64,000 nt of DNA, from positions 558,001 to 622,000 of the forward strand of contig NZ_JAGIYY010000001.1 in the NCBI RefSeq assembly GCF_017813335.1, written 5' to 3'. This stretch comes from Tianweitania sediminis. GTDB taxonomy: Bacteria; Pseudomonadota; Alphaproteobacteria; Rhizobiales; Rhizobiaceae. Positions 9,547-48,665 of this stretch are shown here, in pieces. The notes below the pieces were generated by a model. That model was given only the letters and a program-made list of their open reading frames with translations, ran no database searches and was not told the DNA's origin. A program made the translations under genes and the position numbers. Within the stretch, counting starts at the first letter, position 1; the number at the start of each line of letters is the position of its first letter.

Positions 9547-9561
9547 TTAACGCCGCTTTAA
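9547..9561 (+). promoter_or_regulatory. CtrA-binding site upstream of ftsK
   Basis: TTAACGCCGCTTTAA is a perfect TTAA-N7-TTAA CtrA box, 57 bases before the ftsK ATG at 9619 and in the 142-base gap after the Crp-family gene. It suggests cell-cycle control of ftsK. Confidence 0.7.
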
Positions 9562-43796: not shown

Positions 43797-44270
43797 TCAG
43801 GAATGGCTTTGGCGGCCTTGTTCACCTGCAACAAGCAGGCCGAGATGCTTGATGTAGCTCGTTGTTTCGAACGCGCTGCTGCGGGCTTCCGCCAGGAGCT
43901 CGTTCATCTGCCGAAGCTCCATCCGCTGAAGCGCGCAGAGCTGCATGCTGTTGGCCAGCATCTGCAGTGTTTTCTCGTAGTTGGCTTCTGACTGCCGCAG
44001 CAGGGCGGCGAGATCTTCGATCCGTTCCATCAGCCGGCGCTTGTCGGCTTCCGCTTGTCGGGCATCGCGCTCGGCCGTTTCTTCCAGCCGGGCGAAGCTT
44101 CGCTCGTAGAAGGCGATCTTGCTGGCAGCGGCCTGGACCATTTCAAGCAAGGGCCCAAGCGACTTTGCATCCTCGACAGCTTGCTGCGGGCGCTGCGGGG
44201 TTTCCGGACGCGGAAGCGACGGCTCGCTTTCCGCAGTCTCCATCAGGTCAAGTTCAAGGCCAAGGTCCAT
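43797..44270 (-). CDS. Coiled-coil protein C of the CtrA-box operon (unassigned)
   Basis: A 157-aa protein. An acidic proline-containing head (1-30) is followed by one long charged helix with heptad pattern (about 40-145; ARLEETAERDARQAEADKRR, ERIEDLAALLRQSEANYEK). There is no membrane segment, signal peptide or enzyme motif. It starts at ATG 44270 with GAGGA upstream and only 26 bases after the preceding coiled-coil gene, so it is the third gene of that operon. I cannot assign a family; structural or scaffolding function is inferred from form only. Confidence 0.7.
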   Translation of the reverse strand: MDLGLELDLMETAESEPSLPRPETPQRPQQAVEDAKSLGPLLEMVQAAASKIAFYERSFARLEETAERDARQAEADKRRLMERIEDLAALLRQSEANYEKTLQMLANSMQLCALQRMELRQMNELLAEARSSAFETTSYIKHLGLLVAGEQGRQSHS

Positions 44271-44296
44271 ATGCGTCCTCCCCGAGAGGACGAGAA

Positions 44297-44767
44297 TCAG
44301 CCCGCACGAAGTTGCGCGTTCTTTTCCCGTTTGATGCTGCCGCCGAAGCCGTTGACGATCGCCTGGTTCAGCCGCGTCAGCCAGGTTTCGGCTTCGATGG
44401 CGCGTGCTTCAAAGGCCTTGGCGCGCTGGTTCGCCGCGCGGATCTCTTCTTCGGCGCTGTTGAGGCGCGCAGCCATCTGGATGCTGGCATCACGATGCGC
44501 CGCGTTCATGGCTTCGATCTCAAGTTCGAGCACCTGAACGCGCTCTTCGCTGGCCTTGATCGCCTCGCAGGCTTCCTGGACGAGGAGCAGGGAAGACGCC
44601 CATTCCGGCTTGCGGGGCTCGTCTTCCCGCTCGAAACGATAGGTCGGCTTTGCGGCAACGGACGCTTCCCGCACCTGGCGCGGCTCGTAGTCCATTTCCT
44701 GGCTGGCTTCACTGGAAGCGGTGCCTTCCCAGGCATCATTGCCCACGACGTTCACTGCACGGCTCAT
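44297..44767 (-). CDS. Coiled-coil protein B of the CtrA-box operon (unassigned)
   Basis: A 156-aa protein with a disordered N-terminus (1-65, MSRAVNVVGNDAWEG) and a helical, glutamate/alanine-rich C-terminal half with coiled-coil periodicity (about 70-145; EERVQVLELEIEAMNAAHRD, AEEEIRAANQRAKAFEARAI). GAGGAG precedes the ATG at 44767. The gene lies 37 bases after coiled-coil gene A and 26 before gene C. No enzyme or membrane feature. Function unknown; probable partner of the other two because of shared form and transcription. Confidence 0.72.
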   Translation of the reverse strand: MSRAVNVVGNDAWEGTASSEASQEMDYEPRQVREASVAAKPTYRFEREDEPRKPEWASSLLLVQEACEAIKASEERVQVLELEIEAMNAAHRDASIQMAARLNSAEEEIRAANQRAKAFEARAIEAETWLTRLNQAIVNGFGGSIKREKNAQLRAG

Positions 44768-44804
44768 TTTGAACTCCTCGTTCCAGCGCGCGAAAGTTAC
44801 GGAA

Positions 44805-46289
44805 TTAGTCATTGTCTTCATTCGAAGGCTTCGGCCCGACAGGCAGGAAGCTCACGTTGGATTGCGGCTCGGATTGCTTTGGATCGTCCAGCGCCATCGG
44901 CTGGAAGGACCGATTGGCGCGCTTCAGGGACTCGTTCAGGCGCTGCAGGGAAGCCCGGCTCTCGCGCGCAATGTTCAGCGCGCCTTGCGCCAGCGTGCGT
45001 TCCGCCCGTTCATTTTCGAGCTCTTCCACAAGCCGGCGATGCGATGCTTCCAGAGCCGCCCGCTCCAGCTCGAATTCCTTGGTGAGCTCTTCCACCCGTT
45101 CCGACCGAGCGCGCGCCTTTTCCAGCGCGCTTGTAAGAGCGACTTCTTTGGCGGAAAGCGCCTTCGTGAGCATGTCGCAGCGCTTCACGAGGCTTTCCGC
45201 CGAACGCTGGGTTTCCGAGAGCTCCGCAGCCTTGGCCGCAAGCCTTTGTTCCAGGCTGGCGTTCTGGCGTTCGGCCGCCTCGCATTGCTTTTCGAGGTTG
45301 CGCACGAGACTATCCGAATTGCGGAGGGCCGCGTCCTTTTCCGAAATCAGATGGCGGGACTGCCCGACGACCTGCTCCGCGGAGGTCACACGGGCGGTCA
45401 AAGCTTCCAGCCGCAGCACCAGAGACGCTTTTTCGGCGCTGAGAGCAGACAGTGTCAGGTCGTGCGCATGCTCGCGCTGCTGGCGGGCCGCTTGCTCGGC
45501 TTCGAGTTTCTGCTGGAGCTCCGCGATCCTTGTTTGGCGCTCCTGCGCCTGGCGGTCGCTCTCGTTCAAGCGCGACTGGAGGTCGACGCGGTCCATGACC
45601 TGTTTGTCGATTGCGCCCTGCAGCCGCTCCAATTCGCGTTCCAGCGTGGCGCTGCGGTCGGCGTGCAGGATCGCTTGTTCCTGCGTAAGCTGCAACTCCG
45701 CGGCGCGCTCGGCAAGGAGCTCGCTCAGTTCTCCGACCTCGGCATCCAGGCGCTGGCGGTTTTCGCGCTCGGTTGCAAGCTGCTGGTCGGCATTCGCAAG
45801 CAACTTCTGGGTTTCTGCCAGCTTCGACCGGTCGGCTGCCGCGGAGGCATGCACGTGATCGAGATCGTCTTCCATCGCCTTGTTGCGATTGAACAGCACG
45901 TGGTAGTCGTTTGAGAGCGTCGAGAACTTTTCAGCGTTCTGCTGCAGTTCTCGCTGGAAGCGGGCGCGCTCCTCGCTTTCGCGCCGGAGCAGTGCCTCGA
46001 GTTCGAGCACCCGGGCCTTAGCCTTCGGCAGTTCCGTGGAAAGCTCCTCGATCGGCTTGGACAAGAGATGGAAGTCGTCCGAAAGGGACTTCAGGTCTTC
46101 CAAACGGTCCGCCATGTAACTGAAGCGGACATGCAGGAGCTCGTTGCGCTCGCCCACCTTTTGCAGCGCTGGGGTGGGGGCCGCTGCGGGGGCAACCTGC
46201 GGCTGCGGGTCCACAGCTTCCGACGCAGTTCCCGAGGAACTGTCGGCGCTGGCACGCTTGCGCAAAAGGAAGTCCCACGGCGCGGTCAT
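44805..46289 (-). CDS. Long coiled-coil protein A, CtrA-box operon leader (unassigned)
   Basis: A 494-aa protein whose residues about 45-455 are nearly continuous heptad-rich coiled coil (ELSTELPKAKARVLELEALL, LSETQRSAESLVKRCDMLTK). A 40-residue proline/alanine head and a tail ending NVSFLPVGPKPSNEDND flank the rod. Head-rod-tail layout and length recall bacterial intermediate-filament-like proteins such as crescentin (430 aa), but I see no true sequence match. No ATPase head, so it is not an SMC protein. The ATG at 46289 has GGGAGAA upstream, and a perfect CtrA box lies 28 bases above it. It heads a three-gene coiled-coil operon beside minCDE. Confidence 0.8.
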   Translation of the reverse strand: MTAPWDFLLRKRASADSSSGTASEAVDPQPQVAPAAAPTPALQKVGERNELLHVRFSYMADRLEDLKSLSDDFHLLSKPIEELSTELPKAKARVLELEALLRRESEERARFQRELQQNAEKFSTLSNDYHVLFNRNKAMEDDLDHVHASAAADRSKLAETQKLLANADQQLATERENRQRLDAEVGELSELLAERAAELQLTQEQAILHADRSATLERELERLQGAIDKQVMDRVDLQSRLNESDRQAQERQTRIAELQQKLEAEQAARQQREHAHDLTLSALSAEKASLVLRLEALTARVTSAEQVVGQSRHLISEKDAALRNSDSLVRNLEKQCEAAERQNASLEQRLAAKAAELSETQRSAESLVKRCDMLTKALSAKEVALTSALEKARARSERVEELTKEFELERAALEASHRRLVEELENERAERTLAQGALNIARESRASLQRLNESLKRANRSFQPMALDDPKQSEPQSNVSFLPVGPKPSNEDND

Positions 46290-46317
46290 CTTTTTCTCCC
46301 GTGCGCCGACTCTACCC

Positions 46318-46332
46318 TTAACGCTTCATTAA
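46318..46332 (-). promoter_or_regulatory. CtrA-binding site of the coiled-coil operon
   Basis: TTAACGCTTCATTAA is a perfect TTAA-N7-TTAA, 28 bases upstream of coiled-coil gene A and the only such site in its upstream gap. Confidence 0.7.
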
Positions 46333-46446: not shown

Positions 46447-46632
46447 CTACTGCAATCCGGATGCGTCGACCAGATTAACCGGAGCCGGTGCGGGTGGCGC
46501 AGCCTGATCGCCAACCAACCCGCTCAGTTCGAGCTGCTGCTCCTTCGGAAGCATCGCAGAAACCGCGGCTGCGACGAGCAGCACGAGCATGAAGATCGGA
46601 ATGTACCATTCTGGCGCGCGAAAGCGGTGCAT
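46447..46632 (-). CDS. Small single-pass membrane protein
   Basis: A 61-aa protein (MHRFRAPEWYIPIFMLVLLV) with a short basic cytoplasmic N-terminus, one hydrophobic helix (about residues 10-28) and an Ala/Pro-rich periplasmic tail. GGGAG lies 9 bases before the ATG at 46632. It sits between minE and the coiled-coil operon, all on the minus strand, with a near-match CtrA site upstream at 46711. No family recognised. Codon use and ribosome site make it a credible gene. Confidence 0.62.
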   Translation of the reverse strand: MHRFRAPEWYIPIFMLVLLVAAAVSAMLPKEQQLELSGLVGDQAAPPAPAPVNLVDASGLQ

Positions 46633-46747: not shown

Positions 46748-47014
46748 CTAAACCGCAAGCGCCGCCGAACGGGCATTCGGGATCTGGATATCGATCTCCA
46801 ACGTGGAGGTCGTGTCGCCGCGATCCATCCGCACATGCACGTCGTCATGGTCGATCTGGATGTGGCGCGCGATCACGGCCATGATCTCCTCGCGCAGCTT
46901 GCCAACCAGATCGGGCTGGTTGCGGCTTTTGCGCTCATAGGCCAGCAGGAGCTGGAGGCGCTCACGGGCAACCGGCGCGCTGCCGCGCCGCTTGAAGATG
47001 TCGAACATGCTCAT
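46748..47014 (-). CDS. minE: Cell division topological specificity factor MinE
   Basis: MinE drives pole-to-pole oscillation of MinD. The 88-aa protein has the membrane-targeting start [10 protein letters not shown], the anti-MinCD helix/strand [20 protein letters not shown], and the dimerisation region [20 protein letters not shown]. Its ATG overlaps the minD stop by 4 bases (47011-47014). Last gene of minCDE. Confidence 0.95.
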
Positions 47015-47826
47015 GCCGCTTTCCTTCCGAGCAGTCGGTCGAGGAGGCCGCGCTTGTCTGTTGGCAGCACCATCGGCACCGTTTCACCTTGCAGCCGCTT
47101 GGCTGCCTCGAAGTAGGCTTTTGCCGCGATATTGGACGGCTCGTTCACAGTCACTGGCGACCCAAGGTTGGATGCGCGCAGAACGGCCTGGCTTTCCGGA
47201 ACGATGCCGAGCAGCGGCGTCGAGAGGATCTCCAGAACGTCGTCGATGTTGAGCATCTCGCCGCGTGCGGCCCGGGCAGGGTCGTAGCGCGTCACGAGAA
47301 CATGCTTCTTCACTTCTTCACCCCGTTCGGCCTTGAGCGTGCGCGAGTCGAGCAGCCCGATGATGCGGTCGGAATCGCGAACCGAAGAAACTTCCGGGTT
47401 GGTCACGATTACAGCTTCATCGGCAAAGCGCATGGCGAGCTGGGCGCCGCGCTCGATGCCGGCCGGGCTGTCGCACAGCACATAATCGAACTTGGCGCGC
47501 AGCGGCGCGATGACCTTGGCCACGCCTTCTTCCGTCAGCGCGTCCTTGTCGCGCGTTTGAGAGGCCGGCAGGAGATAAAGCGACTCGAGGCGCTTGTCGC
47601 GGATCAACGCCTGCGTGAGCTTGGCCTGGCCCTGGGTGACGTTGACCAGATCGAAAACGACACGGCGCTCGGCACCCATGACCAGGTCGAGATTGCGCAA
47701 ACCGACGTCGAAATCGATCAACACCACCTTCAAGCCGGTTGATGCCAACGCCGCCCCCAACGCGGCCGTCGACGTTGTTTTGCCCACGCCTCCCTTGCCG
47801 GAGGTAACAACCACTACCTTCCCCAT
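47011..47826 (-). CDS. minD: Septum site-determining ATPase MinD
   Basis: A 271-aa ParA-like ATPase with deviant Walker [12 protein letters not shown] near residue 9, [18 protein letters not shown], and Walker B-like [16 protein letters not shown]-terminal amphipathic membrane-targeting helix is present (LLDRLLGRK). It recruits MinC and is displaced by MinE. The ATG at 47826 is chosen because it begins the standard [13 protein letters not shown]; the upstream frame to 47985 overlaps minC. Confidence 0.97.
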
Positions 47827-47846
47827 TTCCGTGTCTCCCGTCGGGT

Positions 47847-48605
47847 TCAGTTGAGGGTCGTGACGCAAACCACGCCACCCTCGAGATAAGCTTGGATCGG
47901 CCGCCCGATATGCGTGGCTTCCATGTCTTCGGCGGTGCGGTACCAGCCGTCCACGGACAGAAGCTCGGCCTCGTTGCGGCGGCAAAAGATGCGCGCGTCT
48001 TCCTTGCCATTGGCGCCGGCAAAGGCGCGGCCGCGCAAAGTGCCGTAGATGTGAACGGATCCGCCGGCGATCACTTCTGATCCCGAAGCCACGGATCCGA
48101 GCACGACGATGTCGCCTTCCGGATGGTAGATCGACTGGCCGGAGCGCACCGGCTGGTCAAGGATCAGCGTGTTGGCAGCTTCCAGATCTTCCGGCTCTTC
48201 AGTCACGACGGCTTCCGGTTCCGGCGCGGGCTTGTCGTCCGCTCGGGGCACATCGACCGTGACAGGACGCGCGCCCTTCAGCAAAGGTGGCAGGCTTGGA
48301 TCGAGATCTTCGCGGCCCGCTTCGTCGATGGCGTAGATCCGGATACCGCGGCGGCTAAATTCCGCTACCAGCTCGGCGATCTCTGCGTCGTTCGGCTTCA
48401 AAAGGTTGAGGTCCAGCACCACCGGCCGACCCGCAAAAAAGCCCGGTGAATTCGCAGTCCAATCATCCAGCCCGCCGAACCACTCGTCCAGCGGCGCTTC
48501 GGGAGCCAGTGCGAAGGCCATGAAGGATCGCGCGGGAAAGCGGATCGACTTTCTTTTGGCAGGAGGGGCAGGAAGCTCGGCTTCCGGTTCGGGTGCGCAG
48601 TGCAA
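47847..48605 (-). CDS. minC: Septum site-determining protein MinC
   Basis: MinC blocks FtsZ ring formation away from midcell. The 252-aa protein has an N-terminal FtsZ-inhibiting domain (about 18-110; SIRFPARSFMAFALAPE) and a C-terminal beta-helix domain that binds MinD (VRSGQSIYHPEGDIVVLGSV, GSVHIYGTLRGRAFAG). The only in-frame start is TTG at 48605, with AAGGA 9 bases upstream; that ribosome site overlaps the proximal CtrA box. First gene of minCDE, with 20 bases to minD. Confidence 0.93.
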   Translation of the reverse strand: MHCAPEPEAELPAPPAKRKSIRFPARSFMAFALAPEAPLDEWFGGLDDWTANSPGFFAGRPVVLDLNLLKPNDAEIAELVAEFSRRGIRIYAIDEAGREDLDPSLPPLLKGARPVTVDVPRADDKPAPEPEAVVTEEPEDLEAANTLILDQPVRSGQSIYHPEGDIVVLGSVASGSEVIAGGSVHIYGTLRGRAFAGANGKEDARIFCRRNEAELLSVDGWYRTAEDMEATHIGRPIQAYLEGGVVCVTTLN

Positions 48606-48618
48606 GGCAGGCAGGTCC

Positions 48619-48633
48619 TTAATGAACAGTTAA
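48619..48633 (-). promoter_or_regulatory. Proximal CtrA-binding site of minCDE
   Basis: TTAATGAACAGTTAA is a perfect TTAA-N7-TTAA beginning 14 bases from the minC start; its minus-strand TTAAGGA also contains the minC ribosome site, so CtrA here would lie at or below the transcription start, a repressor-like position. Confidence 0.7.
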
Positions 48634-48650: not shown

Positions 48651-48665
48651 TTAACAAGCTGTTAA
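48651..48665 (-). promoter_or_regulatory. Distal CtrA-binding site of minCDE
   Basis: TTAACAAGCTGTTAA is a second perfect TTAA-N7-TTAA, centred 32 bases (about three turns) from the proximal box, suitable for cooperative binding. Confidence 0.7.

Follow-up and report, generated by a model that had tools for sequence, protein, structure and literature searches.

Three adjoining minus-strand genes in the window (the whole 64 kb stretch of DNA that was analysed) encode a member of the crescentin family and two small rod-like proteins that are paralogues of each other. They probably form an operon for a CtrA-timed, intermediate-filament-like crescentin cytoskeleton with two dedicated accessory rods, a reading to which we give a rough probability of 0.66. 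Crescentin is the protein that bends curved bacteria. The accessory-rod reading is based on homology, the conserved trio, paralogy, the lack of any MreB match and the promoter boxes; from these we infer binding, membrane or wall coupling, curvature and timing. An earlier note, made from the sequence alone, had described the three minus-strand genes, their sizes, gaps of 37 and 26 bases and a box 28 bases before the first gene, all of which were confirmed when the ORFs of the window were read. Its proposal of a coiled-coil cytoskeletal operon is supported, in that gene 1 is a crescentin by its Rod_CreS match and the trio is conserved. The features of the region are the following.

44805..46289, minus strand: creS-like gene (gene 1), 494 aa, matching Pfam PF19220 Rod_CreS (E 3.1e-71); head at residues 1-86, crescentin rod at 87-445 and tail at 446-494 with a QSNVSF motif.
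44297..44767, minus strand: ORF2, downstream of creS, 156 aa, a small rod with a disordered head; a length of 174 aa would result from an alternative upstream ATG at 44821.
43797..44270, minus strand: ORF3, 157 aa, a second small rod and ORF2 paralogue.
46318..46332, minus strand: perfect CtrA-type box, TTAA-N7-TTAA, 28 bp before the creS ATG.
46748..48605, minus strand: minE, minD and minC (longest ORFs), the next genes upstream of creS, named from the Pfam domains MinE, CbiA/AAA_31 and MinC_C.
48619-48633 and 48651-48665, minus strand: two perfect CtrA-type boxes before minC, from the motif scan.
9547-9561: perfect TTAA-N7-TTAA box directly upstream of ftsK, in which FtsK domains were found.

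Within the operon, no sigma-70 promoter site was predicted (0.3 in shuffles), and the four predicted terminators were not in excess of the 4.6 found in shuffles. Between minE and creS lies a 61-aa minus-strand ORF (46447-46632) with one hydrophobic segment as judged by eye; no relative of it was found among the ORFs of the other creS loci fetched.

Gene 1 is, on its sequence, a member of the crescentin family, matching the whole PF19220 model above its curated cut-off (240.7 bits against 100). Profile positions 1-359 align to residues 87-445, so that model and rod are of equal length. The head-rod-tail form, likened to crescentin in the earlier note, is thereby borne out, and two further statements in that note, that gene 1 had no match that could be named and that it was undescribed, fail; it belongs to a family with Hyphomicrobiales members already in print. 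A remote-homologue search, which the note had proposed, recovered crescentin both as PF19220 and as PDB 8AFL (Caulobacter crescentus crescentin), the latter matched by the six-member family profile A4 with an E value of 4.6e-21. In this match, A4 positions 41-462 align to 8AFL residues 21-442, and the printed alignment is gapless. A phmmer search of PDB with the single window sequence gave no match at 0.001. Ungapped identity between the window protein and CreS is 84/422 (19.9%), the best of 101 offsets. The heptad phase of the two proteins agrees across most of the rod, with a weak stretch at approximately CreS residues 255-276; in its 35-residue windows this analysis did not resolve a stutter near the rod end. 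Short hydrophobic and basic N-termini recur in the family (MTAPWDFLLRKR, MSSPLSFFFRR, MSWLSLRK) and are a candidate membrane-attachment feature, while the tail motif SNVxPF is present in most members, the window form being SNVSF. Other identities were considered and rejected: an undescribed family, given the Rod_CreS match; an SMC/Rad50 protein, for which NCBIfam matches were far below their cut-offs (SMC_prok_B at 41 bits against 567) and are attributable to the coiled coil; and carriage on a plasmid, as tblastn of plasmids gave no match.

The two small proteins are paralogues on sequence grounds, with a profile-profile match between ORF2 and ORF3 at 98.1% probability (E 1.2e-13). The alignments show a common start resembling DW-x3-L-x-LVE-x-A and a common end resembling A-E-x-[WY]-L-x-R. 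Structure prediction, suggested in the earlier note as a check, gave for each a single long helix behind a disordered head. AlphaFold2 places the ORF2 helix at residues 55-155 (mean pLDDT 77.7), the residues before it being mostly below 50, and the ORF3 helix at 38-156 (mean pLDDT 85.6) after a low-confidence head. Of the two, ORF3 is by far the less conserved. With BLASTP it separates by clade, and ORF3 homology between clades rests on the profile. When all 3876 ORFs in the loci were scored, the iterated ORF3 profile, built from the same 34 members that it scores, gave those members at least 81.5 bits and ORF2 members 25-58, with no match to creS. The best ORF outside the trio reached 37.9 bits when second copies of the same loci were set aside.

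The trio is conserved. Each of the 35 non-duplicate core loci (33/33 from named genomes, one from genome G617 (L040) and the window) has an ORF2 homologue downstream of creS, and by the iterated profile an ORF3 homologue follows directly in 34/35 (32/33 named), the exception being Beijerinckia sp. L45. The mutual linkage on which the earlier note had wished its operon to be judged is thus conserved. Since creS alone was used to find the loci, the partners played no part in their selection; the loci are mutually related, and the conservation counts are therefore non-independent. Four duplicate loci (L038, L039, L042 and L043, equal to L079, L080, L085 and L056) were left out of the counts. Pairwise distances correlate among the three proteins (r 0.90-0.94, rho 0.67-0.77), which is explicable by shared ancestry alone.

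PF19220 exceeded the cut-off in 6/397 genomes of the order and, in the class, in 1/385, the window's own; an earlier draw from the order gave 2/150 above the cut-off and some weaker match in 30/150. A protein search found creS in 3/151 genomes of the same family and in one of three of the genus, the genus-mates G001 and G002 giving none. Nor was it found in the 96 genomes covered alike by searches of the family and of the order of G155, a genome chosen as a candidate member of the Caulobacterales, being one of 3/115 matching a holdfast marker family. The genome searches scored the best first-look candidates per genome (four for PF19220, nine for ORF2), which leaves room for weak relatives to escape them. 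Scanning named genomes with A4 turned up 33 loci, comprising 16 from Aureimonas, 13 from Methylobacterium, one each from Fulvimarina endophytica and Beijerinckia, and two from Beijerinckiaceae metagenome-assembled genomes (MAGs). A tree of 35 CreS proteins places the window protein among the Aurantimonadaceae rows, as sister to F. endophytica (100/100), a join to be taken with care since both are long branches. Several of the strains have 'Leaf' in their names, and 29 of the 33 named trio loci (L056-L088) are from Aureimonas (16) or Methylobacterium (13). From these names, a link between curvature and the leaf surface is possible.

The perfect CtrA-type box that the earlier note placed before gene 1 was confirmed at 46318-46332. 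The 64 kb window contains four perfect TTAA-N7-TTAA boxes where 0.04 are expected, and 0/100 dinucleotide shuffles reach four; the boxes stand before ftsK (9547), creS (46318) and minC (48619 and 48651). A shape gene thus has a promoter box of the kind that also precedes ftsK and minC. The consensus determined by ChIP-seq is TTAA-N7-TTAAC (PMC7200025), and direct repression of minCD by CtrA is reported in S. meliloti (PMC4433202). Amongst relatives the box stands in part. Near-boxes are enriched before creS, with a site within one mismatch in 22/37 loci (two divergent PF19220 loci included) against 1.9 expected from mononucleotide shuffles, but perfect boxes are present in only 3/37. In a fixed 340-base promoter window, near-boxes precede creS in 12/30 cases and other ORFs in 25/414 (Fisher p 5.6e-7, a value that overstates the case, given the relatedness of the loci and the one site common to seven Aureimonas); the figures for perfect boxes are 3/30 and 5/414. 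The creS sample is 30, five core loci out of 35 having yielded no promoter row for creS; a locus was dropped where its gene model lacked this ORF or too little upstream sequence was available. Control of the creS operon by CtrA, whether as activation or as repression, is plausible from these sites.

No MreB (PF06723) was found at E 1e-30 in any of the 35 genomes searched (33 named, G000 and G617), several of which are drafts or MAGs in any one of which a gap could hide the gene. The same search matched 8/14 control genomes, Caulobacter among them. In the first eight creS genomes to be found, apparent MreB genes were rejected: the PF06723 matches reached at most 63.7 bits, on ORFs of 420-780 aa, and of five that were checked four were Hsp70 and one FtsA. 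The result agrees with the reported absence of MreBCD, or the Rod complex, in Rhizobiales, which are described as growing from the pole (PMC8546619).

These observations may be combined as follows. CreS would form a stable filament on the inner membrane, held there by its short hydrophobic-basic N-terminus, and the filament would curve the cell. ORF2 and ORF3, as paralogous short head-rod proteins, would act on the same CreS filament, binding it possibly via the CreS tail motif SNVxPF, and could link it with the membrane or with wall synthesis. This is the job suspected of MreB in Caulobacter; here MreB, for which no gene was found, seems unable to do the anchoring. CtrA would time expression, so that production of the filament falls at the proper point in the cell cycle. 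The presence of the trio in two clades in which no MreB was found makes ORF2 and ORF3 good candidates for crescentin's missing helpers. The first 27 residues of Caulobacter crescentin are reported to be needed for membrane attachment, and direct binding to lipid or membrane could not be shown, another component, possibly MreB, being proposed (PMC10873595, 2024). The same source reports that C. crescentus crescentin also curves E. coli cells (PMC10873595), so that dedicated partners are not needed everywhere. A more specific form of the proposal, that crescentin in these polar growers without MreB is a three-part, CtrA-timed system in which the two paralogous rods act as the adaptor that joins the filament to membrane or wall synthesis, is put forward tentatively and seems to us rather less probable than its opposite.

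Alternatively, a crescentin homologue may have been re-used, for example in cell stiffening or in organisation of the growing pole, and be served in that role by ORF2 and ORF3. The Caulobacter filament is proposed to slow circumferential elongasomes (PMC10873595); with no Rod complex in Rhizobiales, a filament acting in this way would have no target, and both polar growth in the group (PMC8546619) and the lack of an MreB match in the 35 genomes favour re-use. We nevertheless regard it as unlikely, since creS of Chelatococcus reniformis, also of the Hyphomicrobiales, restores curvature to C. crescentus, and curved cells are reported for four Hyphomicrobiales species that carry creS (PMC12700997).

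The accessory-rod reading also assumes that the small rods serve CreS. They could instead be a separate coiled-coil pair with another target, merely co-transcribed with creS. When the 397 genomes of the order were searched with ORF2, six matched, of which four are creS-positive (G000, G578, G617 and G697). In the other two, G680 and G758, no PF19220 gene was found at 1e-12, nor was creS found by the core model in the stretches around their ORF2-like genes; ORF2-like proteins can therefore exist without crescentin. In G680 there are two such genes in tandem (L100 7458-8505, plus strand), with no crescentin gene in the 16.5 kb stretch read. Extra copies also occur away from the creS operon: two Methylobacterium and a single Beijerinckiaceae MAG carry ORF2/ORF3-like ORFs on the strand opposite to creS and upstream of it (L069 5275-6356, L070 6464-6997 and L086 5370-6388, all minus strand). 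These cases favour a separate pair. It is nevertheless made still less probable than re-use by the fact that the genes directly adjoin one another in all 35 core loci, drawn from two clades, and that a BLASTP comparison of 16 of these loci, showing clusters of at least three loci, gave no other gene family common to both clades. Only creS and ORF2, plus antisense shadows, occurred in both clades, ORF3 forming one cluster per clade at that cut-off, and the flanking families were confined to Aureimonas. Two large unlabelled clusters were discounted, the example shown for each lying across creS on the opposite strand. Beside the divergent PF19220 genes of G620 (100.5 bits) and G091 (128.8 bits), no ORF2 was found. 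Downstream of the former is an ORF that by eye resembles an L,D-transpeptidase (L041 7239-7844, minus strand).

The earlier note had further set the operon next to minCDE, and suggested a scaffold acting with division or polar growth, which may be read as a division-site or polar scaffold working with MinCDE. The two do adjoin in the window, and the promoter regions of creS and minC both contain perfect CtrA-type boxes. The link is unsupported elsewhere: no min gene was found near creS in the 40 other loci fetched (four of them second copies; flanks up to approximately 10 kb), the window being the single case, and such a scaffold is very improbable. A relative of phage tail tape-measure proteins left by a prophage is hardly credible, since, although a grouping of crescentin-like proteins with alphaproteobacterial tape-measure proteins is reported at a low support of 81% (PMC12700997), none of the three proteins matched PHROGs at 0.01, no relative was found in viral contigs (by a single-sequence scan that detects close relatives only) and the genes are conserved as a trio.

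The preferred reading, a crescentin cytoskeleton with two accessory rods, bears on an open question in the field, namely how crescentin is attached to the membrane and slows wall growth (PMC10873595). ORF2 and ORF3 provide a short list of candidate crescentin adaptors, and creS genomes in which no MreB was found offer a natural test of whether crescentin bends cells that grow from the pole. Crescentin-like proteins have been reported in 13 Hyphomicrobiales families, C. reniformis providing the gene that restores curvature (PMC12700997, 2025), and the window protein is from the same order and has the same Pfam domain. The crescentin gene itself is thus already known, and what appears to be new is a creS operon with two accessory rods, which we did not find in print. 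Operon partners and CtrA boxes are absent from the section of that paper on Hyphomicrobiales proteins; in its main text 'operon' occurs in the reference list only and 'MreB' and 'Methylobacterium' nowhere, and CtrA is named five times (PMC12700997). Among the matches listed from open-licence literature, searched by titles and the starts of abstracts, there was no report of creS operon partners.

Compared with C. crescentus crescentin (8AFL and relatives, PF19220), the window protein is alike over the whole rod domain, with a rod of equal length in the profile alignment, and the two have in common the head-rod-tail anatomy and a conserved rod end, LAxGALxxARxxRxxLQ. They differ in that the window protein is only approximately 20% identical, that creS of the window type is followed by two conserved small rods, and that no MreB was found in the genome here. 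Within the window's own family, the tail of most members carries an SNVxPF-type motif.
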